From positions 1 to 42,272 of the forward strand of contig JAIOHV010000218.1 of the NCBI GenBank assembly GCA_019912885.1: a stretch of 42,272 nt of DNA, in the 5' to 3' direction. The position numbers and the translations under genes are program-made. Shown here piece by piece: positions 124-41,292 of this stretch; within the stretch, counting starts at the first letter, position 1; every line of letters begins with the position of its first letter. A model generated the notes under the pieces. It was not told the DNA's origin. It saw only the letters and a program-made list of their open reading frames with translations, and searched no databases. The stretch comes from a bacterium. GTDB lineage: Bacteria; Lernaellota; Lernaellaia; JACKCT01.

Positions 124-1911
124 ATGGCGAAACCTCGCGGAAAAACGGCGGTCAATCCCACGGCCAAGTCGGCGGCCCGCTGCAAGGCGTCCGTCGAAAC
201 CCTCGAAAGGGAAAAACGGCGCCTCGAACGCGAGGCGGCTCGCCTTGAGACCGAGCTTTTCGAAACGCGGGAGATCATCGCGGGCGTCAAGGCCCTGGAT
301 CGCGTTTCCGAACTGACCGAAAAGGTCAAGATTTTCAATACGATCGTCCGCGAGCGTACCGGCTCGCCGATCTCCATTTTTTATCTATACTGGCCGGATC
401 GCGACGCCTTCGAGCTGGTCGAATGCACCGGAAACTGCGTCGGCGCCGACGCCGACCGCAAGGTGCGGCTGACCGATTGCCAGGGGCGTTGCGCGAACAG
501 CCGGGTGGGGCACACATTCGCGCGCACCGACGGGCTTTTCTGGGAACTTGTCTGCCAGGGCGAGATTTTTCCCGTCCACGCGCCCGGCGGACGGCATCGC
601 TTCGAAGACGTTTTCACGAACGCGGGCCTGCTCGGGTGGGATATCACGTCGATCGTGCCGCTGACCTTCGGCGGAACCCCGATCGGCTTCGCCGCGTTTC
701 GACCCGATCTGTCGTCCGTTCACGAGAACGAAGCGTACGTGCGCCGGTTCGCGACGCAGGCGGCGTCGTCCATCAAGACCGCCATGCTCTATTCCGCGAA
801 CCAGGACGATAAGGCCGCTTTGAACCGCACGCTGAAGAACCTGAAGATGCTCTACAACATCGGCCAGATGATGGCGCATATCACGGAGCTGAAGGAGCTG
901 TTGCGCTTCATTCTCGACGAGGCCTGCAAGACGACCGACGCGGAAAAAGGCTCGCTGATGTTGCTTGACGAGGAACACCAGCGCCTGGTCGTGCGCGTCG
1001 TACGGGGCCTTCCCGACAAGGACGCCGAGGATCGCATCAACAACGGCGAGACGGAGTGCACGAGCCTTTCGATCGGCGAGGGCGTCGCCGGGACGGCGTT
1101 CATGGAATGCAAGCCGATGATCGTCAACGACGTTCAAAACGACCCCAAGTTCAAGACCCAGAGCAAACACGTGAAGTCGATCCTGTGCGTTCCGCTGATC
1201 GCGAACGACGAAGCGATCGGCGTTATCAACATCACGAACAAAAACGACGGCGCGGGATTTTCCGGCGAGGACGCGCAACTCATCAGCGCGCTCGCGAACC
1301 AGGCCGCGATCTCCATCCATCGTTCGCGGCTTTACAACCTCGCGATCATGGACGAGCTGACGGGGCTTTATGTGCGCCGGTATTTCGCGCACCGCCTGCA
1401 AGAGGAGATCAAGCGAGCCGACCGTTTCGGCACGAAGTTCTCCGTCATCATGTTCGATATCGATCACTTCAAAAGCGTCAACGACACTTTCGGCCATCAC
1501 GCCGGCGATCAGGCGCTGGTGACCGTCGCGAACACGCTGAAGGCGGCGGCGCGCACCACCGATTTGCCGGCGCGATTCGGCGGCGAGGAATTCGTAATCC
1601 TTTTGCCGGAGACCAACGGCAAGGGCGCGACGATGGTGGCCGAGCGGATCCGGAAGACGGTCGAGCAGACGCACGTCTCCGACATCGGCCGATCGCTGAC
1701 GATTTCCGCGGGCGTTTCGGTCTATCCGGACCACGGCAGCGAGATGCTGGGGCTCGTCAAATCCGCGGACATGGCGTTGTACGAGGCCAAACACGGCGGG
1801 CGCAACCGCGTCGTACTGTGGGAGCTTCTTGGAGCGCCGGCGGACGAGGAAGAGCACGAATCCGCGGCGGTTGCGTCGCTGACGCCGCGCAAGCGCCTGG
1901 CTGCGATTTAG
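124..1911 (+). CDS. GAF-domain diguanylate cyclase (GGDEF)
   Basis: Predicted cytoplasmic sensor that makes cyclic di-GMP from two GTP. Residues about 20-50 form a charged coiled coil. A degenerate GAF-like region (about 55-220) contains two CX3C pairs (C101/C105 and C119/C123). A clear second GAF domain covers about 245-405, and a GGDEF domain about 410-575. The active-site motif GGEEF is at 486-490. An RTTD inhibitory site lies exactly five residues before it, so product feedback inhibition should be intact. No membrane segment or signal peptide is visible. A GGGGGGAGG ribosome-binding site (about 106-113) precedes a TTG at 121 and an ATG at 124; I chose the ATG, and the alternative adds one residue. 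The gene stands alone between a divergent lipoprotein gene and a convergent peptidase gene. The input signal is unknown; the Cys pairs hint at metal or redox sensing. Confidence 0.9.
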   Translation: MAKPRGKTAVNPTAKSAARCKASVETLEREKRRLEREAARLETELFETREIIAGVKALDRVSELTEKVKIFNTIVRERTGSPISIFYLYWPDRDAFELVECTGNCVGADADRKVRLTDCQGRCANSRVGHTFARTDGLFWELVCQGEIFPVHAPGGRHRFEDVFTNAGLLGWDITSIVPLTFGGTPIGFAAFRPDLSSVHENEAYVRRFATQAASSIKTAMLYSANQDDKAALNRTLKNLKMLYNIGQMMAHITELKELLRFILDEACKTTDAEKGSLMLLDEEHQRLVVRVVRGLPDKDAEDRINNGETECTSLSIGEGVAGTAFMECKPMIVNDVQNDPKFKTQSKHVKSILCVPLIANDEAIGVINITNKNDGAGFSGEDAQLISALANQAAISIHRSRLYNLAIMDELTGLYVRRYFAHRLQEEIKRADRFGTKFSVIMFDIDHFKSVNDTFGHHAGDQALVTVANTLKAAARTTDLPARFGGEEFVILLPETNGKGATMVAERIRKTVEQTHVSDIGRSLTISAGVSVYPDHGSEMLGLVKSADMALYEAKHGGRNRVVLWELLGAPADEEEHESAAVASLTPRKRLAAI

Positions 1912-1965: not shown

Positions 1966-3318
1966 TCAAGACGCCGGATCGCCGTTTTCGGGAGCCGGTT
2001 CGGGCTCGCCTGAGGGCGGCGGTTCGTTCGCATTCGTTTCGCTGCTGGTCGGTTCAGCTTCCGGCGCATCCGCGGTGACCGTCGAAGCCGCCGCTTCGGC
2101 GTTTACGACCGCGTCCGCCGGGCCGGCGACAATGGTCGGCGCCGCGTCTTCGGGCAACTTGCACTTTTCCGCGATGATCGTGTCGATGCGGGCGGGGTTC
2201 TCGTTCCAGAATTCCGGGTACCAGCGGCGGTAAGTGGTCCACAGGTTTCGCGTTTCGTCGCACTTTCCCGAACGCACAGTTGACCAGAAAACGCCCCAGG
2301 CGGCCCATTCGGAATAGATCGTGTCACCGAAATCGCCGCGACGTAACGTATCGTAATGGGTGGCGGATTCGTCGTAGCGCTTCAATTTGCGCAACGCCTT
2401 GGCCAAATAATATTTGTAGGATTGGGCGAAGGGCGATGCGGGCGTTTGCGTAAGACCGGCGCTTGCCGCGTCGACCACCGCCTGCCAGTCCTTTCGTCGA
2501 TCCGCCTTGCGGACTTCCCAATACGGACCGGATTGGTCCACCGCGTTTTGCATGACGACGCGGATGCACGCGTCGGTCTTCTTTTTCGTTGCATTCAATT
2601 TTTCGCGCGTGGCCGAGGCCAGCGACGATTTCCAGTCCTTGCCCTTGTAGAGGCGTTTGATGAAGTCCGCGTGGACGTCCTCGCCGTAAACGGACTTGAT
2701 GCAACGAACGAAAAGTCGTTCGCGAAGATAACGACGCTCGTGGCGCACGCCCATGAGATAGTTGATATCGAGTTTTCTCAGATCGCCGTCCCGGCGGTTG
2801 ATGGTGAGATACGCGCGCTCCACGCCGTTGTTGCCGACATCGTAGGCCAGGCCTTCGGAGACGTATGATGGCCAATCAACGGCTTGGCGAAAGCTGATCC
2901 GGTGCTCGAAGGTGGCGTGCGTCAGTTCGTGCGCGAGTAGGTTTTGCAGCTCGATCATGCCGGTGAAGGCGGCTTGCGCGTCGACGCGGATCGATTCCAC
3001 GCCTTTGAGCGTATTCGCGTACCAGTGCCGGCTGAGACCCCAGTAACCGTCGTCGGGTGTGTCGACAATCTGGACGTAAGTCGTTTGAAAATATTTCCGT
3101 GCTCCCTCGTCCCCAACGTACGCCACCACGCGATCCATCGCCTTCGGAAACTCCTCCTCGATGCGGCGCGTCAATTCGGCGAGTTCTTCGGCGTTCAGCT
3201 TAAGCCCGCCGGGCGGCGGCTGGACGATGAGCTTGTATCCTTTCGCGTCCGCTGCGGCGGCGGGGAGCGGCAAGCAGAACGCCAGAACGATAAACGCCAC
3301 GATCGCGAAACGCATCAT
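1966..3318 (-). CDS. exported HEXXH metallopeptidase-like protein with C-terminal helical repeats
   Basis: About 450 residues. The N-terminus (MMRFAIVAFIVLAFCLP then PAAAADA) is a Sec signal peptide, so the protein should be periplasmic or outside the cell. A gluzincin-type HELTH motif is followed by a Glu in SEGLAYDV about 30 residues later, the usual third zinc ligand of the peptidase MA-like family. The region after about residue 260 looks like TPR-type helices, and the last 60 residues are a low-complexity Pro/Glu/Ala tail. The frame can be extended to a TTG at 3351, but that codon falls inside the predicted promoter. The ATG at 3318, with GGGGG just upstream, is preferred. The substrate is unknown; relatives are often annotated only as peptidase MA family or tetratricopeptide proteins. 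Confidence 0.75.
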   Translation of the reverse strand: MMRFAIVAFIVLAFCLPLPAAAADAKGYKLIVQPPPGGLKLNAEELAELTRRIEEEFPKAMDRVVAYVGDEGARKYFQTTYVQIVDTPDDGYWGLSRHWYANTLKGVESIRVDAQAAFTGMIELQNLLAHELTHATFEHRISFRQAVDWPSYVSEGLAYDVGNNGVERAYLTINRRDGDLRKLDINYLMGVRHERRYLRERLFVRCIKSVYGEDVHADFIKRLYKGKDWKSSLASATREKLNATKKKTDACIRVVMQNAVDQSGPYWEVRKADRRKDWQAVVDAASAGLTQTPASPFAQSYKYYLAKALRKLKRYDESATHYDTLRRGDFGDTIYSEWAAWGVFWSTVRSGKCDETRNLWTTYRRWYPEFWNENPARIDTIIAEKCKLPEDAAPTIVAGPADAVVNAEAAASTVTADAPEAEPTSSETNANEPPPSGEPEPAPENGDPAS

Positions 3319-3342
3319 GAACCCCCGCAGTGTTATGGGGGA

Positions 3343-3371
3343 ATTATCCAATATTTTTGCGCGGAGGTCAT
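3343..3371 (-). promoter_or_regulatory. sigma70-like promoter for the minus-strand peptidase gene
   Basis: On the minus strand, ATGACC (3371-3366, 4/6 match to the -35 consensus) and GATAAT (3348-3343, 5/6 match to the -10 consensus) are separated by exactly 17 bp. Transcription would begin near 3336, giving a leader of about 18-20 nt before the ATG at 3318. This agrees with the chosen start. Position and spacing support it; no experiment does. Confidence 0.5.
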
Positions 3372-30504: not shown

Positions 30505-32211
30505 ATGATCGTTCTCGGCATCTCCGACAACCACGGAGCCGGGGCGGCCGTCGTCATCGACGGGCGCCTCGTCGCCGCCGTCAACGAAGAACGCATCGAC
30601 CGTGAAAAAAATTCGATGGCCTTCCCGTGGGGCGCCATCGACGCATGCCTTTCCATCGCGGGGGTGACTCCGGACGATGTCGATCTCGTCGCGGTCGGCA
30701 GTGAGTTCACGCCGATTTTCGGCCTTCGCCTCGTGAAGGGCTGGCATCGGCGCGTCAAACGAAGCGCCGGCCAGTTCAGCTTCCTGTTCGATCTGTACAT
30801 CATGTACCACCTGCTGGCGCGGGCCATTTCCGTGTTGCGTTCCATCGAAATTCGCCTGTCGCGCTGGTGGATCGGGCGCGGCTTGCGCGCGCACGGCTAT
30901 GACTGCGACGTCCAGCTTTTCGATCATCACCTGTGCCACGCCTGGTCCGTGTACCTCACCGCGCCATTTGACGACGCGGCGGTCGTCACCGCGGACGCGA
31001 TGGGCGACGGCCTGTCCGCAACCGTGTCGATCGCCTGCGCCGGGCGCGTATCCCGCATCTTCGCCCAGGATGGCCGCTGCGCGTTCAACCCGTATTACTC
31101 GCGCATTACCGAATACCTCGGTTTCATCCCGAACCGGCACGAGGGCAAGGTCACGGGCCTCGCGGCGTACGGCGATCCGTCGTTGCTACTCGACGAATTC
31201 GAAAAGAGTGCGCATTTTCGCGGGCCGGGTTTTTCGACGTTTCGCGTCTGGATGCCGAACCCGCGCGCGTGGGGGCTTTATCGAAAAATTCGCGGCCACA
31301 GGCGCGAGGACATCGCGGCCGCCTGCCAGCGCAACCTCGAGGCGCAAATGGGCAGGTTCGTTTCCCGATGGCTTGAGCGCACCGGCAAGTCGCGCCTCGC
31401 GCTCGCGGGCGGCATCTTCGAGAACGTCAAGTTGAATCAGCGCCTGCACGAGCTTTCGGGCGTGCAGGAAATCTACATCTTCCCGAACATGTCCGACGGC
31501 GGCCTCGCGACCGGCGCGGCGCTTGGCGCTTCGCGCCGCGGTCGAAAGACTCTCGAGACGCCCTATCTCGGCATGGCGTACGGCGAGGACGAATTGGAGG
31601 CGGCGATCCGCGACGCCCGGCTCGAACACGAGCGGCCCGACGATCTCGCGACGGCGGTGGCGCGGCTTGTCGCCGATCGCAAGATCGTGGCGCGTTTCGA
31701 CGGCGGCATGGAATACGGCCCCCGCGCGCTCGGACACCGGTCGATCCTTTTTCGCCCGGACGACCCGTCGGCCAACGACTGGTTGAACGAGAAACTGCGC
31801 CGCAGCGAGTTCATGCCATTCGCGCCGGCGGTGCGCGCCGAGCGGGCGCCGGACCTGTTTGTGGGGATCGCCGGCGCCGAATTCACGGCGCGCTTCATGA
31901 ATATCTGCTTTGACTGCACGGACGAGATGAAAACGAAGTGCCCGGGCGTCGTCCACGTGGACGGCACGGCGCGCCCGCAGGTGTTCAAGAGGGCCGAAGA
32001 CGCGCTATACTATGATATTCTGGCGCGTTTTGAGGATCTGACGGGTTTGCCGGCCATCCTCAACACGAGCTTCAATATGCACGAGGAGCCGATCGTCGCC
32101 ACGCCGCGGGATGCGATCCGGGCTTTCCTCGCCGCCGGGCTCGACGCGCTCGCGCTCGGCCCGTTCCTGGTTCGTCCGCGGCGAAAGGCAGCGAATGTCG
32201 ATGTTCATTAA
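30505..32211 (+). CDS. complete NodU/TobZ-family carbamoyltransferase
   Basis: Transfers a carbamoyl group from carbamoyl phosphate, via carbamoyl-adenylate, to a hydroxyl of a sugar or small molecule. The 568 residues are the normal length, with both halves. The N-terminal Kae1-like domain has ISDNHGAGAAVVIDGRLVA, FDHHLCHAWS, VTGLAAYG and LALAGGIFENVKLNQ. The C-terminal YrdC-like domain has YGPRALGHRSIL, FMPFAPAV, HVDGTARPQ and LNTSFNMHEEPIVATP. It is therefore a second carbamoylation system beside the split one at 25017-28456. An insert (about 70-125, with a hydrophobic stretch FSFLFDLYIMYHLLA) is unusual and may touch the membrane. The 3' end overlaps the next gene by 17 bp. Confidence 0.93.
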   Translation: MIVLGISDNHGAGAAVVIDGRLVAAVNEERIDREKNSMAFPWGAIDACLSIAGVTPDDVDLVAVGSEFTPIFGLRLVKGWHRRVKRSAGQFSFLFDLYIMYHLLARAISVLRSIEIRLSRWWIGRGLRAHGYDCDVQLFDHHLCHAWSVYLTAPFDDAAVVTADAMGDGLSATVSIACAGRVSRIFAQDGRCAFNPYYSRITEYLGFIPNRHEGKVTGLAAYGDPSLLLDEFEKSAHFRGPGFSTFRVWMPNPRAWGLYRKIRGHRREDIAAACQRNLEAQMGRFVSRWLERTGKSRLALAGGIFENVKLNQRLHELSGVQEIYIFPNMSDGGLATGAALGASRRGRKTLETPYLGMAYGEDELEAAIRDARLEHERPDDLATAVARLVADRKIVARFDGGMEYGPRALGHRSILFRPDDPSANDWLNEKLRRSEFMPFAPAVRAERAPDLFVGIAGAEFTARFMNICFDCTDEMKTKCPGVVHVDGTARPQVFKRAEDALYYDILARFEDLTGLPAILNTSFNMHEEPIVATPRDAIRAFLAAGLDALALGPFLVRPRRKAANVDVH

Positions 32212-33790
32212 CGGACCCGGCGCGAACGGCCGCGCCAACGGCGCGCGCGAGCCAGGGGCGTCCGCGCGGCCCGTGGACATCCTTTTGTTCTCGCCACCGC
32301 CGTGGCTGGTGACCGGCCCGCCGCTGGGGCTTGCCGCGTTGTCCGCCTGGCTTCGCGGGCGCGGCTGGAATGTCGCGGTCATCGACGGCAACACGCGCGC
32401 CTATCACAAGACGGACACGTCGCTGCGCCCGCTATGGCTGTGGGACAACAGCGCGTTCTGGGAAGATCCCGAACCGGTCGAGGTGAAATTCGGCCCCCTT
32501 CTGCGCGAATTGGCGGACGAGGTCGCGACGCATCGCCCGCGCGTTCTCGGCATCAACGTCGTTTCGCGAAAAGAAGCGGCGAGCGCCATCTTCCTTGCAC
32601 GCCTGAAGGAGCGCTTGCCCGATCTCAAGGTCTTCGTCGGCGGGCCCGGAGCGGGCTGGCGCGAGTCGCGCGATCACATCCGCCAGCTTTGCGGCGATCT
32701 CGTGGACGGCTTCATCGTCGGCGAGGGGGAGCTGGCCTGCGACGAGTTGCTGAGGCGCCTGCGCGACGGTGCGCCGCTCGCGAATCTGCCGGGGTTCGTG
32801 TCCGGACGCCCCGACGGCGAGGAGTGCGTCATCCCGGGGCATTTCATCACGGATATGAACCAGCTTCCGATCCCCGACTTCTCCGATTTCCGCCTCGCGG
32901 ATTACGAGGAGCAGGGGCTCGTCGTCGAGTGGAACCGCGGGTGCGTCGCGCGGTGCACGTATTGCAGCATCAACGATTACTGGAACGCGTTCCGCTTCAA
33001 GGCGCCCGAAAAGGTCGCCGACGAGTTGCGTACGCTGCACGAGCGCCACGGCATTTCGCGCTTCACGATCGTCGATCCGATGGTCAACGGCGATCCGGAA
33101 TTGCTCGATGCGATCTGCGACGCGATCGTCGCGACAGGCATCCATGTGAAATGGTCCGCGGGCATCTCGCCCAATCGTATTGTGGGCAAATCCACGTTCG
33201 AAAAAATGAAGGCCGCGGGCTGCTTCAAGCTTGAGTTCGGCGTCGATTCCGGCAGCCGCACGATGCTTCGCAAGATGGGCAAGCGCTTCAAGCCCGACGA
33301 GGCCGGCCAGATGATGCGCGACTGCAAGGACGCCGGTATCCAGGTGATGCTCTACCTCATCGTCGGCTTCCCCGGCGAAACGGACGAAACGGTGCAGGAG
33401 ACGTGCGACTGGCTCGATCGATGGGGGGGCGCGGTCGATATGATCCGCAATCTTTGCAGCCTGACGATTGAATACGGCACCGCCATCGAAAAGCGCGCCG
33501 ACCTGTTCGGCGTCGAGTTCGACCGTCACGACGTGCAGTGGAAGGACAACTGGCAGGGCAAGGGCGACGACACGCCGCTGCGCCGCGCGATGCGCGTGCG
33601 CAAGGTGATCGACAAGGTGCACGATCTCGGTATTCCGATCGAAACCGAGGTCATCACGGATCCCGAACACGCGACGCACGACGAACACGGCCAGTGGGCC
33701 GGCGGCGAGGGCGCGTCCGACGCCCAAAAGGTCGCGCAGCCGCGCAGCTCGATCATGTGCGCGTCGTTCCCCACGGGTTCGCAGTCGTGA
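32195..33790 (+). CDS. cobalamin-binding-type radical SAM protein (stand-alone module)
   Basis: 531 residues. An N-terminal tail rich in Asn-Gly (MSMFINGPGANGRANGA) precedes a B12-binding-type Rossmann domain (about 25-190; ILLFSPPPWLV, GLAALSAWLRGRGWNVAVIDGN, FIVGEGELACDELL). The radical SAM core has CX3CX2C (C250, C254, C257, in RGCVARCTYC), IVDPMVNGDPELLDA and IVGFPGETDETV. The domain lacks the DXHXXG cobalamin motif, as do many class B family members. Such enzymes usually methylate unactivated carbons or phosphorus, or rearrange rings. It is closest to the second module of the next gene (shared DPMVNXDP and WSAGXSPNR). Two Met codons (32195 and 32201) are possible starts. It overlaps the giant gene by 4 bp (GTGA). 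Confidence 0.88.
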   Translation: MSMFINGPGANGRANGAREPGASARPVDILLFSPPPWLVTGPPLGLAALSAWLRGRGWNVAVIDGNTRAYHKTDTSLRPLWLWDNSAFWEDPEPVEVKFGPLLRELADEVATHRPRVLGINVVSRKEAASAIFLARLKERLPDLKVFVGGPGAGWRESRDHIRQLCGDLVDGFIVGEGELACDELLRRLRDGAPLANLPGFVSGRPDGEECVIPGHFITDMNQLPIPDFSDFRLADYEEQGLVVEWNRGCVARCTYCSINDYWNAFRFKAPEKVADELRTLHERHGISRFTIVDPMVNGDPELLDAICDAIVATGIHVKWSAGISPNRIVGKSTFEKMKAAGCFKLEFGVDSGSRTMLRKMGKRFKPDEAGQMMRDCKDAGIQVMLYLIVGFPGETDETVQETCDWLDRWGGAVDMIRNLCSLTIEYGTAIEKRADLFGVEFDRHDVQWKDNWQGKGDDTPLRRAMRVRKVIDKVHDLGIPIETEVITDPEHATHDEHGQWAGGEGASDAQKVAQPRSSIMCASFPTGSQS

Positions 33791-36700
33791 ACGCCCGCGA
33801 GGCCAAGTCCATCGAGTTCCCGAAACACTTGATGGTCCAGACGGTCTCGCGCTGCAACAGCGGGTGCGTCATGTGCCCGTGGCCCGATACCGCAAAGACG
33901 CAGGCCCAGGGCGAGATGGACGACGCGGTGTACGCGCGCCTCGTGGACGAGGTGAAGCGCTTCCCCGATCTGTCGCGCGTTCTGCTCTATCTGATGAACG
34001 AGCCGACGCTCGACAAAAAGCTCCCCGCGCGAATCGAAATGATGCGCCGCGCGTTGCCGCACGCGGAGATCTACATCATCACGAACGGCCTGTTGCTTGA
34101 CGGCGACTTCGGCGAGCGGCTGATCGACTCGGGTCTGTCCTGGCTGGGCATCTCCATCCACGCGCTCGAACCGGACACCTACGAAAAAATCACCGGGCGC
34201 AAGGACTGGGCGACGGCGCGGCCGAGGCTCGAACGTTTCATCGACCGCGCCCTCGCGGTGCGTGGCGATAATTTCATCCAGGTGAACATCACCAAGGTGC
34301 GCCCGCACATCACACCCGGGGAATACGCCCGCGCCGCCGAACATTGGCGTGAGATCGGCGTGACGCGCGTGGACCTCGACGACGGCTACATCTCCCGCGC
34401 GGGCAGCGTGCCGGTTTACGGACACGAGCGCGCGTACACGCCGCGCACGTCCGGTTGCAAGACGATCTGGGCGTACAAAATGGCGCACGTGTTGTTCAAC
34501 GGCGATGTCATTCCCTGCTGCATGGACTGGCGGCGCAAGGTCGTGTTCGGCAACGTCGCCCGCGACGGCGGCCTGGCGGCGGTGTGGCGCGGCGAAGGGC
34601 GCGCGCGATTTCTCGATGCGCTCGGAAGCGGCGAGCGCCTCCCCGACGAATTTCTTTGCGTGAGTTGCGAGGACGCCATTCCCGCCGAGGGCGCCAACCT
34701 CGCCCAGGATCGCGATCTTTCCGTTGCCGCGACCGGCCCCCATCCAGGCGCCGGGGATTTCGTCGCGGTCAACTTCATCGGCAAGCCGAACGTGCCGATT
34801 GACACGCGCGACGCGGAACCCGAAACGCCGGGTTGCGATGTCAGTGCCGCGAGCGATAGCGAGCGGTCGGTCGCGAACCCGCGCCCGCTTCCGCCTAACG
34901 CCGGCGACGATTCGCCGGCGAGCTACGATCTTGGCGACGCGGTGACGATTGACCCGGCCGCGCCCGTCGGTCCGGCGACCGAAATGGAGGCCGCGGAAGA
35001 CGGCAACGCGGATGCGCTCTTTTTCCTTCCGCCGCCGTGGCAGGTATCGGCGCCGCCGCTCGGCATCGGGGCGATCACCGGCTACCTGCGCGAAAAGGGC
35101 TGGCGGGTGAAGGTGCTCGACGGCAACGTGCGGCTTTACAACATGTCCGATCCGCCCAAGCGCAACCTTTGGGATTGGGAACGCGGTCCGTTCTGGGAAG
35201 GCGAGGAACAGGTGGACGCCGCGTTCGGTGACGATCTGCGCACGCTCGCGGAAGAAGCCGCCGCGTCCGGCGCGAAGGTCTTCGGCATCAACATGGTCTC
35301 GCGCAAGGAGGTGCCGACGCGAATCTTCCTGAAGCGCCTGAAAGAGCTTGCGCCGGATTCGTTCGTTTTTGTCGGCGGCCCGCATGCCAGCCATATCGAC
35401 CTGCGCCGCCACGTGACGTCGTTCCTGCACGAGTTCATCGACGGATTCCTCGTCGGCGAAGGCGAAGCCGTCATGGAGGCGCTGTTGACGCGCATCCGCG
35501 AGGGGCGCGACATCCTCGATTGCCCCGGACTTGCGCGCTGGGATCGCGTGGAAGGCGAGGAGACGCTGAACGCGCCCGCGTTCTTCCCCGACCTCGCCGC
35601 GTTGCCGCCGCCGGATTTCCGCGATTTCGACGCGAACGCCTACGGCTCGCCCGCGCTTGTCGTCGAGTGGAGCCGCGGATGCGTCGGGCGTTGCACGTTC
35701 TGCAACATCCCCGACCTCTGGCAGGACGCGCGCTACAAGCCCGCCGCGAACGTCGTCCGCGAACTTCGGACGCTCGTCGAACGTCACGGCACGAAAATCT
35801 TTTCTGTCGTCGATCCGATGGTGAACAACGACCCGGCGATGCTCGAGGCGATCTGCGACGGCATCATCGAGGCCAACCTCGATGTCACGTGGTCCGCGGG
35901 CATGTCGCCAAACCGCCCGCTGACCGCCGAACAATTCCACAAGATGAAGCAGGCGGGGTGCTATCGCCTGGAGTTCGGCGTCGAGTCCGGCTCCGATCGC
36001 GTGCTGCGCCGGATGAACAAATATTACGACGCCGCCGAGGCCGGGCGCATGCTGCAAGACGCGCACGCGGCGGGGATCGACGTGGTCATCTACCTCATCG
36101 CGGGCTTCCCGGGCGAGACGGACGAGGACGTCGAGGCGACGCTGCGTTTTCTCGAGGAAAACCGCGAGTCGATCGGGCTGGTGCGCAGTTTGAACGGCCT
36201 TGTCATCATCCACGGCACGCCGATTGAGAAGAAATCTCACGTTTTTGGCATTGAACCGATCGACCGACTGGAGAATGGTTGGACCAATCACTGGGTTTCA
36301 GGTGACAATACGCCGGATTTACGCGCAAAACGCGTGGCTCGTATCGAACGTAAGCTCCATGAGCTCGGCATACGGATCGAGTTCCAGAACACGGAAGACG
36401 TGATGCCAAGCGAGATGCTCTACGCGAAGAAGATCGAGGATACGCAATCCCGGCTCGACGCGGTCGGCGCCGAGTTGATCGCGCTGATGGGCCGCGTGGA
36501 CAAGGTTTTGCGCGGCGAGCCGGTGCGCGAGGTTCCGGGCCACAACGAGGTCGCACTCGTGCTCTGCCCGGTTTGGGGCGTGGACATGCCGCCGCTCGGC
36601 ATGGCGACCGTCGCGGGCTTCATGCGCAATCAGGGCTACGACCCGCTCGTGGTCGATCTCAATATCGAGTTGTATCAGGCCGCGTCTCCGGCGCTTCGGC

Positions 36701-39700
36701 GCTTCTTCGAGGAAGACAGCTTCCGCCACTGGACGGATGAAGACTCGTGCCGGCGCATCGTCGCCGCGTTTTCGCGGCCGATCGACGCCGCCGTGGCGCG
36801 CATCATCGAGTCCGGCCGGCGTGTCGTCGGCTTCACCGTCTATTCGCCCAATCGCCTGTTCACGATCGAGGTGATGCGCCGGCTGCGCCGCGCGAATCCC
36901 GAGATCATCCACATCATCGGCGGGCGCGGCATCCAGACCGAAAACGAGCGGCGCCTGTTCCCGCACGATCTCGTCGACCACTTCGTGATCGGCGAAGGCG
37001 AGGTGACGTTCATTCCGCTTCTCGAACGCATTTTTCGCGGTGGCGACCCCACGGGCCTGCCCGGCACGGATCGTTTCGTCGGCCGCGATCTGGCGGGATA
37101 CACGCCGCGCCCGCGCCTGTCCGACCTGACGCTCCTGCCGCCGCCGGCGTACGATCTGTTCCCGCTCGACGCCTATCGCGGCGAGGATCTGCCCGTGCAG
37201 TTTTCGCGCGGGTGCGTCGCGTTTTGCACGTTCTGCAACGACAACAATCGCAACACGGGCTTCCGCACCCGGCCGGGAAGCCACATCGCCTCCGAGCTTC
37301 GGCACCTTGTCGAAACCACGGGACGCAAAAGCTTCCGCTTCAACGACCTGCTCATCAACGGCGACCTCCAGGTTCTCGAGGAGCTGTGCGACGACCTGAT
37401 CGCGATGGACCTCGGCATCCGCTGGATTGCGCTCTTCCAGCCGCGCGGCGACATGACGGGCGAGCTGCTGCAAAAGATGGCCACGGCCGGCTGCTATACC
37501 CTGAACATGGGCGTGGAGTCCGGCTCGGACCGCGTTCTGAAGCGCATGGGCAAGGGCTTCCGCGTCGACGACATGGAGCGCGCGCTCAAGCAGGCGCGAA
37601 GCGCCGGCATCAACACGATGCTCAACTTCTTCGTCGGCTTCCCGGGCGAGCAGGAAGAAGACGTCGACATCACCATCGACTTCATCCGCCGCAACCGCGA
37701 GTGGATTTGCGGCATCACCTCGCTGAACTCGTGCATCCTCCTCGAGGACGCGCCGATCGAGAAGAACTGGCACAAGCTCGGCATCGAGTTCGACGACTAC
37801 GCGACGCGCGACGTCGGCTGGCGCCTCGGCGACAACACGCCCGAGGTGCGCATGGCGCGCCTCGCGAAGCTCACCGCGGCGGTCAAGGAGCTTGGCCTGC
37901 CGATCGTGGTGACCAACGCGGCCGAACGCGCGGCGGATATCGACGTGCTGCCCGAGCCCGTCGCGGAACCGGAGATCTTCGAGGAAGAAACGACCGTCGT
38001 GGGCGCGAATCTGCTTTCGACGATGGCGACGTGCGCGCCGGCGCTTGACGATTTCGACCCGTCCAAGGGTGAGCCGCGCTGGGAGACGGTGCCGGCGGAT
38101 TTCGCGCACGTCATGCTCATCAAGTGCCCCGTTTGGGGCGTCGATGTGCCGCCTTTGGCGATCGCGTATCTCGCGCAGGTCTCCCGCGACGCCGGGTTCA
38201 AGGTTGTCGCGGTCGATATGAACGTGAAGATCCACAACCGCTGCCACGATCGTTCGCTCTGGCGCATGGACCGCTACAAGGAGTGGGCCGATCCGGAGTT
38301 CTTCCCGGCGACTTACGAATCGCTGTGGGAGCTGACCGAACATTACCTGAAACAGATCGCCGCGCACCCCGCGAGGCTCGTCGGGTTCTCCGTTTGCACG
38401 TCGAACTACCTTTTTACGATGGAAACCGCGCGGCGCCTCAAGAAGTTGGCGCCCGAAAAGGTCATCGTGTTCGGAGGCCCGGCGATCACCAACAGCTTCG
38501 ACGTGCAGACGCTCACGCCCGCGGACGGCGACTACCTGTTCTTCGGCGAGGGCGACGTCGGTTTTCCGGAGATCGTCAGCGCGGCCAACGAGAATCGCGC
38601 GCCGAAGGACGTCTACGGCCTGGTGAAGATCGGCACGAGCTTCACGTACGACAGCGTCGATCGCGCGCTCGTCAAGAAGGGCACGTCGATCCCCACGCCG
38701 ACGATGGAAGAGCTGAACGTCAACGAATACACCGGCACCGCGATTCCGCTTTTGGGCAGCCGAGGGTGCGTTCGCAAGTGCACGTTCTGCAACGACCACC
38801 AGATCTATCAGAAGTACCGCCACCGGCCCGCGAAGGAGATCTTCGCGGATATGGAGTGGCACGTGCTCCATCGCGGCGCGCACCACTTCACGTTCCTCGA
38901 CCTCTTGATGAACGGCCACGTCGGGGTGCTTGAGGAGTTCTGCGATCTCATCCTCGAGAAGGGCTATCAGGTCGCCTGGGGCGGGCAGTGCATCATCCGC
39001 AAGGAGATGACGCTCGAGCTGCTCTCCAAGATGCGCAAGGCCGGGTGCATGAGCATCGTGTACGGCATCGAGAGTTTCAACAACAAGGTCCTTCGCGTGA
39101 TGCGCAAGTACTACACGCAGGAGCTGGCGAAAGAAGTCCTCGGCAACACCGTGAAGGCGGGAATCGAACCGATCATCAACATCATCTGCGGCTTCCCGGG
39201 CGAAGGCGAGGAGGAATTCCTCGACACCTACAACTTCATCCGCGACAACCGCGACATCATCGGCCAGGTCGCCTCCGTCTCGCCGTGCCTCGTGAATCTC
39301 GGCAGCGAGCTTTTTGAGCGGTTCGAGGATTTCGACATTCGTTTCGCGCCCGAAGGCGGGTCCGTCAAATGGTTCACGGCCGACGGCTCGAACACATACG
39401 AAAAGCGCCTCGAGCGCGTCATCCGCGTCACGTCGCTTCTGGCCGAGCGCAACAAGCACATCCACACGGTGAACATTTACGACGAGGCCGACCGCGATCA
39501 GCGCGACGTCGCCGACAACGCCGCCCGCGAACGCGCGCGTATGGAAAAGATTCGGCGCGAGGCCGAAGCGGCTCTGGCCCGCGAAGCCGGCGGCGAGGCG
39601 GCATCCGTGGAATCGACCATCGACTTTGATTCATTGTCGCCCGAAGCGCGCGAGGCGCTCGCCAACGGCCTTGCCACCGCGGCGCTGGCGACCGACGTCA

Positions 39701-41292
39701 ACCGTTCGTTGTCGGAAAAGGCCGCGCGTGTTCCGCGTCGCATGGCGATGGCCGAGCACATCGGTCATGGGGACGACGCAAACGGCAAGACCGGAAACGG
39801 CAACGGCAAGTCAAACGGCAACGGCCATTCGGACACGGACGCCGGCCCGCTCGACGCGATGTTGCTGCTCGCGCCGCCGTGGGGCGTGAACTTCCCGCCG
39901 ATGGGCATTGCGTCCATCGCGACCGCCGCGCGCGAAAAGGGATTCGCGGTCGTCGCGCGCGACCTGAATGTGGAGTGTTACGCGTCGTGCGACGAGCGCC
40001 TCAAGCGCTGGTGGGAGCCCGAGAACCTCAAGTTCTGGCAACCGGGCGAAAAGTTCGACGCGGTGGCAAAGGCGGTCGAACCGCGCGTCGATGCGTTCAT
40101 CGGCGAGGTGAAGCGGCGCAAGCCCCGCGTCGTCGGCCTTTCGACCAACGAATCGAACCTGCCGTTCTCCTGCCGCGTTGCTCGCCGCGTGCGCGAGGTG
40201 TTGCCGGACGCCAAGATCATCCTCGGCGGGCCGGGCACGGCCTGGCCGGTCGATCGGCAAAAGCTCGTCGGCGAGGCGTTCGACGCGGTGATGCTCGGCG
40301 AGGGCGAGTTGAACTTTCCGCGCTTTCTTTCGGCGCTGCGCGACGGTGAGGATCTCTCGGAACTTCCGGGCATCGAGTGGATGTCCGACGATCCGGAAAA
40401 GATTTGCCGCAAACCGACGATCGACGAAACGGTGCGCCCGCTCGATCAGATCCCCGTGCCGTTGTTCGACGATTTCAACCTCGACCTCTACCGCACGCGG
40501 CAGTTGCCGCTGATGATGGGGCGGGGATGCGTCAACCGCTGCACGTTCTGCAACGATCCGCAAATCACGCCGAAGTACCGATACCATTCCGCCGAAAAGA
40601 TGCTGGAGATCGTGAAGTTCTACCAGGACCGCTACGGCGTGACGGACTTCCAGTTCAACGATCTGCTCATCAACGGCTACCTCAAGAACCTGCGGCGCTT
40701 CGCGGAGCTCGTCATCGAGAACAACGTCGAAATGCACTACTCCGGCCAGGCGATCATCGACACGCGCATGGACGACGAAACGCTGCTTTTGCTTCAGCAG
40801 TCCGGTTGCACGAGCCTGGTGTTCGGCGTGGAGAGCTTTTCGGACAAGGTGCTCGGCCTCATGAAAAAGGGCTTCACCGCGGCCGAGGCGCGCGAGGTCA
40901 TGGAACGCTGCACACGCGCCGGCATCAAGGTCATCGTCAACCTCATCGTCGGCTTCCCCGGCGAGACGGAAATCGAACTGACCGAGACGATGGATTTCCT
41001 GCGCGAGAACCGCGATCTCATCGACAGCATCTCCGCCCTGTCCGCGTGCATCGTCACGGCGCAAAGCCCGCTCGAAAACGATCCGAAGCGATTCGGCATC
41101 GTTTTGCCCAAGCCGGAGCACTGGTGCCAGTGGTATTCCGAGGACGGTATGAATACTTACGAAGTGCGTCAAAAACGCCTGTATCGCATGTTGAAGCTCA
41201 TCGAAGAACTTCGCATTCCACACGGGATGACAAACCGCTATTTGGAGATGGTCGGTGCCGAACCGGCCGTCGCCGCCCCGCCGATCGCCTGA
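33787..41292 (+). CDS. giant 2501-residue protein with five radical SAM domains (one SPASM-type, four cobalamin-type)
   Basis: One uninterrupted frame of 2501 codons starting at a GTG in a GTGA overlap. Module A (1-300) is a SPASM-type radical SAM domain: C23, C27, C30; GDVIPCCMDW; LCVSCED. Modules B (about 409-920), C (921-1440), D (1441-1900) and E (2023-2501) each have a B12-binding-type domain opening with a P-X-W pattern and PP(L/M)(G/A), a GEG(E/D) turn, then a radical SAM core. Cluster cysteines are 632/636/639, 1143/1147/1150, 1661/1665/1668 and 2248/2252/2255. Every module keeps the FPGE segment and a tail like GDNTPXXRXXR or DGXNTYEXRXXR. Linkers are acidic or helical (about 1900-2000) or Asn-Gly-rich (NGNGKSNGNG, about 2005-2015). 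Expected mass is near 275 kDa with at least five [4Fe-4S] clusters. It could run an assembly line of successive radical methylations on one substrate. I know of no characterised protein with this architecture. Confidence 0.88.
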   Translation: MNAREAKSIEFPKHLMVQTVSRCNSGCVMCPWPDTAKTQAQGEMDDAVYARLVDEVKRFPDLSRVLLYLMNEPTLDKKLPARIEMMRRALPHAEIYIITNGLLLDGDFGERLIDSGLSWLGISIHALEPDTYEKITGRKDWATARPRLERFIDRALAVRGDNFIQVNITKVRPHITPGEYARAAEHWREIGVTRVDLDDGYISRAGSVPVYGHERAYTPRTSGCKTIWAYKMAHVLFNGDVIPCCMDWRRKVVFGNVARDGGLAAVWRGEGRARFLDALGSGERLPDEFLCVSCEDAIPAEGANLAQDRDLSVAATGPHPGAGDFVAVNFIGKPNVPIDTRDAEPETPGCDVSAASDSERSVANPRPLPPNAGDDSPASYDLGDAVTIDPAAPVGPATEMEAAEDGNADALFFLPPPWQVSAPPLGIGAITGYLREKGWRVKVLDGNVRLYNMSDPPKRNLWDWERGPFWEGEEQVDAAFGDDLRTLAEEAAASGAKVFGINMVSRKEVPTRIFLKRLKELAPDSFVFVGGPHASHIDLRRHVTSFLHEFIDGFLVGEGEAVMEALLTRIREGRDILDCPGLARWDRVEGEETLNAPAFFPDLAALPPPDFRDFDANAYGSPALVVEWSRGCVGRCTFCNIPDLWQDARYKPAANVVRELRTLVERHGTKIFSVVDPMVNNDPAMLEAICDGIIEANLDVTWSAGMSPNRPLTAEQFHKMKQAGCYRLEFGVESGSDRVLRRMNKYYDAAEAGRMLQDAHAAGIDVVIYLIAGFPGETDEDVEATLRFLEENRESIGLVRSLNGLVIIHGTPIEKKSHVFGIEPIDRLENGWTNHWVSGDNTPDLRAKRVARIERKLHELGIRIEFQNTEDVMPSEMLYAKKIEDTQSRLDAVGAELIALMGRVDKVLRGEPVREVPGHNEVALVLCPVWGVDMPPLGMATVAGFMRNQGYDPLVVDLNIELYQAASPALRRFFEEDSFRHWTDEDSCRRIVAAFSRPIDAAVARIIESGRRVVGFTVYSPNRLFTIEVMRRLRRANPEIIHIIGGRGIQTENERRLFPHDLVDHFVIGEGEVTFIPLLERIFRGGDPTGLPGTDRFVGRDLAGYTPRPRLSDLTLLPPPAYDLFPLDAYRGEDLPVQFSRGCVAFCTFCNDNNRNTGFRTRPGSHIASELRHLVETTGRKSFRFNDLLINGDLQVLEELCDDLIAMDLGIRWIALFQPRGDMTGELLQKMATAGCYTLNMGVESGSDRVLKRMGKGFRVDDMERALKQARSAGINTMLNFFVGFPGEQEEDVDITIDFIRRNREWICGITSLNSCILLEDAPIEKNWHKLGIEFDDYATRDVGWRLGDNTPEVRMARLAKLTAAVKELGLPIVVTNAAERAADIDVLPEPVAEPEIFEEETTVVGANLLSTMATCAPALDDFDPSKGEPRWETVPADFAHVMLIKCPVWGVDVPPLAIAYLAQVSRDAGFKVVAVDMNVKIHNRCHDRSLWRMDRYKEWADPEFFPATYESLWELTEHYLKQIAAHPARLVGFSVCTSNYLFTMETARRLKKLAPEKVIVFGGPAITNSFDVQTLTPADGDYLFFGEGDVGFPEIVSAANENRAPKDVYGLVKIGTSFTYDSVDRALVKKGTSIPTPTMEELNVNEYTGTAIPLLGSRGCVRKCTFCNDHQIYQKYRHRPAKEIFADMEWHVLHRGAHHFTFLDLLMNGHVGVLEEFCDLILEKGYQVAWGGQCIIRKEMTLELLSKMRKAGCMSIVYGIESFNNKVLRVMRKYYTQELAKEVLGNTVKAGIEPIINIICGFPGEGEEEFLDTYNFIRDNRDIIGQVASVSPCLVNLGSELFERFEDFDIRFAPEGGSVKWFTADGSNTYEKRLERVIRVTSLLAERNKHIHTVNIYDEADRDQRDVADNAARERARMEKIRREAEAALAREAGGEAASVESTIDFDSLSPEAREALANGLATAALATDVNRSLSEKAARVPRRMAMAEHIGHGDDANGKTGNGNGKSNGNGHSDTDAGPLDAMLLLAPPWGVNFPPMGIASIATAAREKGFAVVARDLNVECYASCDERLKRWWEPENLKFWQPGEKFDAVAKAVEPRVDAFIGEVKRRKPRVVGLSTNESNLPFSCRVARRVREVLPDAKIILGGPGTAWPVDRQKLVGEAFDAVMLGEGELNFPRFLSALRDGEDLSELPGIEWMSDDPEKICRKPTIDETVRPLDQIPVPLFDDFNLDLYRTRQLPLMMGRGCVNRCTFCNDPQITPKYRYHSAEKMLEIVKFYQDRYGVTDFQFNDLLINGYLKNLRRFAELVIENNVEMHYSGQAIIDTRMDDETLLLLQQSGCTSLVFGVESFSDKVLGLMKKGFTAAEAREVMERCTRAGIKVIVNLIVGFPGETEIELTETMDFLRENRDLIDSISALSACIVTAQSPLENDPKRFGIVLPKPEHWCQWYSEDGMNTYEVRQKRLYRMLKLIEELRIPHGMTNRYLEMVGAEPAVAAPPIA
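39799..39824 (+). repeat. Asn-Gly linker repeat, copy 2
   Basis: Second copy of the 26-bp linker sequence found at 23516-23541, one mismatch apart. It encodes part of NGNGKSNGNG in the linker between modules D and E of the giant radical SAM protein. Confidence 0.8.

Follow-up and report, generated by a model that had tools for sequence, protein, structure and literature searches.

An insertion with paired CX3C motifs in a GAF loop of variable length in a bacterial diguanylate cyclase

A diguanylate cyclase encoded near the start of a 42,272-nucleotide contig from a Lernaellota bacterium (the window, by which we mean this whole stretch of DNA) carries four cysteines arranged as two CX3C pairs in a loop of its first sensor domain. 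We propose that they belong to a lineage-specific insertion in a GAF loop whose length differs between family members, and that a local zinc-thiolate or disulfide hairpin is the most likely form that the insertion takes (probability about 0.45). Among the genomes examined the four-cysteine loop is private to this one. Metal or redox sensing by the insertion is a putative role, and since the insertion is found in one genome alone, selection on its cysteines cannot be shown.

Results

Domain architecture of the cyclase

The mechanical start of the open reading frame is a TTG at position 121, and the residue numbering of an earlier, sequence-only reading of this DNA fits the ATG at position 124, which is residue 1 throughout. 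The protein consists of a long helix, a diverged GAF domain (GAF1), a second GAF domain (GAF2) and a GGDEF domain (Table 1). We infer from the structure model that the N-terminal helix would form a coiled coil and serve in dimerisation. The GGEEF signature is found in 40 of the 45 rows of our alignment (the window protein and 44 relatives), and the RxxD motif five residues ahead of it lies at what we take to be the position of the product-inhibition I-site. With both GGEEF and RTTD intact, the window protein looks like an active diguanylate cyclase under product inhibition, and it appears by eye to be cytoplasmic.

Table 1. Positions of the features discussed, in the window unless a locus is named
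Feature	Residues	Position	Strand	Basis or remark
Diguanylate cyclase gene	1-595	124..1911	+	595 aa, stop codon inside coordinates; PF00990, PF13185
Long N-terminal helix	12-59	157..300	+	AlphaFold model
Diverged GAF1	64-192	313..699	+	PDB profile match, AlphaFold, Foldseek
C101, end of GAF1 strand 95-103	101	424..426	+	Sequence, AlphaFold model
Stretch holding the ~18-residue insertion	~104-124	433..495	+	Edges alignment-dependent
C105	105	436..438	+	Sequence
C119	119	478..480	+	Sequence
C123	123	490..492	+	Sequence
GAF2	255-399	886..1320	+	PF13185 GAF_2, E 3e-27
C312 in GAF2	312	1057..1059	+	Cys in 20/45 rows, window included
C355 in GAF2	355	1186..1188	+	Cys in 26/45 rows, window included
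GGDEF catalytic domain	407-562	1342..1809	+	PF00990, E 1e-49
RTTD (RxxD)	477-480	1552..1563	+	Five residues ahead of GGEEF
GGEEF active-site signature	486-490	1579..1593	+	Read in sequence
B12-binding + radical SAM genes in same-class relatives		L216:4077-5384, L218:6261-7373, L217:8712-9746		

No GAF family of Pfam matches residues 1-239 at E values up to 1. A profile built from the GAF1 alignment (A1) matches GAF domains in the PDB, with PDE5 GAF (3lfv) at E = 1.3e-12, and the GAF1 model matches GAF domains or GAF-containing proteins in Foldseek (3ci6_B and 3oov_B, each with TMt 0.66). On the strength of the profile and Foldseek matches, GAF1 is a GAF fold that Pfam missed; the earlier description of the sensor region as GAF-like is thus borne out, though without a Pfam GAF match. 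The AlphaFold model of residues 1-239, made from a 14-row alignment (mean pLDDT 82.4, pTM 0.77), places the N-terminal helix before the GAF fold, which continues into a long helix (residues 196-238) on the way to GAF2.

The four-cysteine motif

The cluster reads CTGNC, 13 residues, CQGRC (CX3C-X13-CX3C), so that both pairs have the form C-x-G-x-C, and the two pairs lie at 424-492 with exactly the residues and the spacing that the sequence-only reading had given them. To gauge the clustering, we placed the protein's 10 cysteines at random among 595 positions in 200,000 draws, using measures that are post hoc, as they were framed after the motif had been seen: two CX3C motifs starting within 22 residues arose in a fraction of 0.00044 of the draws, at least two CX3C motifs anywhere in 0.0087, and four cysteines inside any 23 residues in 0.028. 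Of the window's 118 stop-to-stop frames that reach 150 aa, the cyclase gene alone has a CX3C-X6..25-CX3C. Across the whole genome (G000), the CX3C-X13-CX3C pattern has 20 matches at the DNA level, which is no excess given that the reversed control pattern has 248 forward and 285 reverse matches. Seven of the 20 contain a stop and 13 are open, and just three fall in frames that reach 150 aa: the cyclase frame of 601, one of low complexity (371) and a further one of 180. The idea that the motif is a module repeated in this genome was dropped on these counts, with just two such frames besides the cyclase, one of them of low complexity. GC3 is 0.875 in residues 101-124 and 0.822 over the gene as a whole, so that by this measure the stretch looks native and in frame.

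The insertion is in-frame, about 18 residues long, sits between two strands of GAF1 and supplies three of the four cysteines. It is absent from the aligned relatives, which agrees with the earlier remark that the motif interrupts a GAF-like domain. The domain model is confident for most parts of GAF1 outside this loop, and residues 106-126, which include C119 and C123 and begin just after C105, have pLDDT values below 50. When residues 91-135 were excised and modelled alone from the single sequence, two helices were obtained (93-110 and 116-125), each with one CX3C; this peptide model is weak (pLDDT by ten-residue block 60, 76, 74, 60 and 42; pTM 0.37). The two models disagree, with residues 95-103 a strand in the domain model and helical in the peptide model, and the helix-loop-helix with one CX3C per helix is seen in the weak peptide model and not in the domain model, where the loop is below pLDDT 50. 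A Foldseek search with the weak peptide model returned nothing at E values up to 0.001 (best E 2.9). In a PDB sequence search with residues 91-130 the single match was a vicilin hairpin peptide (6o3q), at a non-significant E of 1.5.

Distribution of the insertion among relatives

The phylum comprises seven genomes, the window's own included, and provides 5 of the 44 aligned relatives. Searched with the whole protein, five of the six other genomes have a match at E values up to 1e-40 that spans a large part or almost the full length of it and is the best of its genome: one of the same family (G002; 58% identity over residues 30-570), three of the same class (G004, G005 and G006), and a fourth of that class in which the match is limited to residues 204-566 (G003). 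The sixth genome (G001; same family, 99% complete) yielded no whole-protein match at E up to 1e-40 and no GAF1 match at E up to 0.01. Residues 48-239 match nothing in the window's own genome except the cyclase gene itself, and no relatives of these residues were found in viral contigs or in plasmids.

The A1 profile was also searched against samples of other phyla (149, 377, 395, 39, 345 and 290 genomes) and against the 15 genomes of earlier loci. Two of the six samples overlap, so that about five groups are covered; the larger phyla are represented by samples, and in the larger samples part of the first-look candidates per genome were scored (e.g. 8 of 38 for G020). At least 109 loci matched A1. 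The 44 that reached at least 90 bits were aligned with the window protein, and the 65 below 90 bits were used just in a scan of open frames for the motif. The 44 rows are not independent, as they contain near-copies (e.g. L125, L160, L161 and L162; L228, L230 and L231), and the closest homologue compared belongs to another genus of the same family, with 54-58% identity to the window protein.

Conservation of the cysteines among homologues had been put forward as one check on a sensory role, and its absence from close homologues as a refutation; in the 44 aligned relatives such conservation was not found. In the columns of C105, C119 and C123 none of the 44 aligned relatives has a cysteine, and in that of C101 a single one does (L099, loosely aligned there). 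Loop cysteines of any kind are scarce in the relatives, with six having a single one and none having two. A conserved four-cysteine sensor is accordingly ruled out for the set examined, in which 0/44 aligned relatives have the four cysteines. Nor did CX3C-X6..25-CX3C occur in any of 145 other open frames with an A1 match (0/145), drawn from the 109 loci plus 80 loci of an earlier search.

In the window protein the loop has 35 residues; 25 relatives have 14-17 and the other 19 have 25-26. Those 19 (L159, L173, L174, L176, L177 and L220-L233) form a clade with the longer GAF1 loop and no cysteine pair, which shows that loop length at this site is variable. The tree places the window protein and L095 (from G002) as sisters with support of 100/100, and both lie inside a five-row clade of the window's own phylum (98/91). 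L095, the nearest relative, is without the insertion, so the simplest account is that it was gained once, on the branch of the window protein; loss in L095 and the others is less simple.

Cysteines outside the loop are shared more widely. C312 and C355 in GAF2 are the window protein's cysteines most shared in the family, and the rows that have C312 always have C355. We considered this pair as the real redox site and set it aside: both are absent in 19 of 45 rows, a pattern that is clade-linked. By GAF strand order, we take the two not to be neighbours.

Neighbouring genes

Elsewhere in the window, positions 33832-41289 (+) hold an uninterrupted frame of 2486 residues in which radical SAM stretches occur five times (PF04055, E 6.5e-105) and B12-binding stretches four times (PF02310, E 1.1e-49). 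Five CxxxCxxC motifs recur along it at intervals of about 510-610 residues, and it appears to be a fusion, in tandem, of several enzymes of the radical SAM type. Directly upstream of it, at 32111-33787 (+), is a separate B12-binding and radical SAM protein with one CxxxCxxC. In G005, G004 and G006, the diguanylate cyclase gene is preceded, at a distance of no more than about 1 kb, by a gene for a B12-binding and radical SAM protein (Table 1); the window contig starts 123 bases before the cyclase gene, so this upstream comparison covers those three genomes alone. Positions 1966-3351 (-) encode a 461-residue protein that has no Pfam match at E up to 0.001 and in which HELTH (HExxH) can be picked out by eye; it is possibly a metallopeptidase.

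Discussion

A possible role for the insertion

The sequence-only reading had suggested that the two CX3C pairs bind zinc or an iron-sulfur cluster or form redox-sensitive disulfides, so that cyclic di-GMP output might follow metal, oxygen or redox state. What stands of this is a compact four-cysteine module in a GAF fold of an apparently intact cyclase, with a spacing that has known chemistry; the notion of a conserved sensor finds no support in the relatives examined. In the reading that we prefer, the twin CX3C would fold on itself as a small hairpin. In a reduced cytoplasm, the four thiolates would most likely coordinate one Zn2+, and oxidation could release the zinc and form two disulfides. 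Since the insertion is on GAF1, which runs into the helix that leads to GAF2, the state of the hairpin could, via GAF1, tune dimer geometry and the synthesis of cyclic di-GMP. It would act as a peripheral, lineage-specific add-on, as relatives with the same domains manage without these cysteines. The boldest form of this proposal, in which a complete helical hairpin with twin CX3C, like that of small Tims and alpha-hairpinins, has arisen in a GAF loop and placed the cyclase under zinc or thiol control as a redox switch of one lineage, on a scaffold otherwise without such a site, we consider unlikely as it stands. The titles and openings of abstracts listed in our literature searches mention no twin-CX3C insert within GAF domains or within diguanylate cyclases.

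The insertion may also be a near-neutral, disordered extension at a site that tolerates changes in length, with four cysteines that have no specific role. Such an extension fits a family in which the loop ranges from 14 to 26 residues, and in which 19 of 44 relatives have the longer form without a cysteine pair; it fits equally the pLDDT below 50 in the domain model and the confinement of the insertion to one genome among those examined. However, chance would seldom produce four cysteines with a regular 3-13-3 spacing and CxGxC pairs that match, and such cysteines are rarely free in the cytoplasm. We regard this explanation as doubtful, if the most serious competitor that the zinc or disulfide hairpin has. 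A metal-free hairpin that relies on thiols alone, with disulfides C101-C123 and C105-C119 made and broken in response to redox stress and arranged as in alpha-hairpinins, strikes us as quite unlikely. Helix-loop-helix with CX3C-Xn-CX3C is the signature of those peptides (according to PMC7191063) and the excised segment was modelled, weakly, in just this shape, but the domain model has C101 in a GAF strand, at odds with a helix, and the cytoplasm is described as typically kept reducing (PMC8846402).

The case for an iron-sulfur cluster, which would make the cyclase a sensor of oxygen, NO or redox state, is one of precedent. Four cysteines of the N-terminal region of AirS are reported to hold a [2Fe-2S] cluster (PMC4601167), and the chloroplast sensor kinase (CSK) is reported to bind [3Fe-4S] with a conserved cysteine of its GAF domain (PMC6949291). 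The AirS spacing, however, is C-X7-C-X-C-X17-C, a pattern unlike the CX3C-X13-CX3C of the window protein, and the CSK cysteines are described as conserved from cyanobacteria to plants (PMC6949291), whereas those of the window protein occur in one genome; we hold a cluster here to be decidedly improbable. Least probable by far is a bilin photosensor akin to the insert-Cys cyanobacteriochromes, in which a cysteine of the insertion loop would provide a second linkage. C119-QGR does read as CXXR, the type of motif that PMC5240096 gives for insert-Cys GAF loops (CXXR/K, beside a canonical CH motif), and phytochromes and a dual sensor kinase that senses light are among the top Foldseek matches of the GAF1 model. 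This likeness is general to GAF folds, though, cyanobacteriochromes are reported by the same source from cyanobacteria alone, and the reading fails because the canonical cysteine and its following histidine are absent, there being no Cys-His pair anywhere in residues 1-239.

Should the hairpin prove to bind metal or to respond to redox state, this cyclase would be a clear case of a signalling enzyme that has gained an input by one short insertion, and its insert-free relatives, in a family where the loop was already variable in length, would be natural controls. Otherwise the case is a caution that a family does not necessarily sense through a cysteine motif that is striking in a single genome.

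Comparison with known systems

The nearest standard of comparison is the GAF-GAF-GGDEF family itself, the 44 relatives of which all match GAF1 at 90 bits or more, by selection; the same domain layout was read in those from the window's phylum. Within the 45-row set, the window protein alone has the four-cysteine insertion, with a loop of 35 residues as opposed to 14-26 in the relatives. Among proteins with like cysteine spacing, Tim9 and Tim10 share the CX3C-Xn-CX3C arrangement, and we see in them a parallel in spacing and not a homologue: they are proteins of the mitochondrial intermembrane space, whereas the insertion is in a bacterial GAF loop, and no small Tim family of Pfam matched the window protein at E up to 1 (a search in which the HMMER filters drop most weak matches). 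Reduced small Tims with their twin CX3C are reported to bind zinc 1:1, with binding abolished by the loss of any one cysteine (PMC3759932). The alpha-hairpinins, which according to PMC7191063 are helix-loop-helix peptides of the form CX3C-Xn-CX3C with bonds Cys1-Cys4 and Cys2-Cys3, and the vicilin-buried peptides have the same cysteine motif as the window protein, and the excised window peptide is weakly modelled as such a helix pair. They are, however, short plant peptides with disulfides, and the parallel is one of spacing only, with no homology to the window protein shown.

Other systems resemble the cyclase in the place or the logic of the sensor. In AirS, the N-terminal region of which is GAF-like, and in CSK a cysteine-held cofactor lies in the N-terminal or GAF sensor region; their output is that of a kinase, while the window protein is a cyclase. 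Zinc sensing by a diguanylate cyclase is known from DgcZ, which has a CZB domain. That domain is a helical bundle with three histidines among its zinc ligands, in contrast to the four-cysteine loop described here, and CZB is not among the Pfam families that the window protein matches at E up to 1. More generally, a 2022 review describes the control of some GGDEF enzymes by zinc or hypochlorite through CZB domains, and lists bilin GAF sensors and periplasmic cysteine switches among further stimuli of cyclic di-GMP enzymes (PMC8846402). In the place that the cysteines occupy, the insert-Cys cyanobacteriochromes offer a parallel, as there too the insertion loop of a GAF domain carries a functional cysteine, one in their case as against four in the loop region of the window protein.
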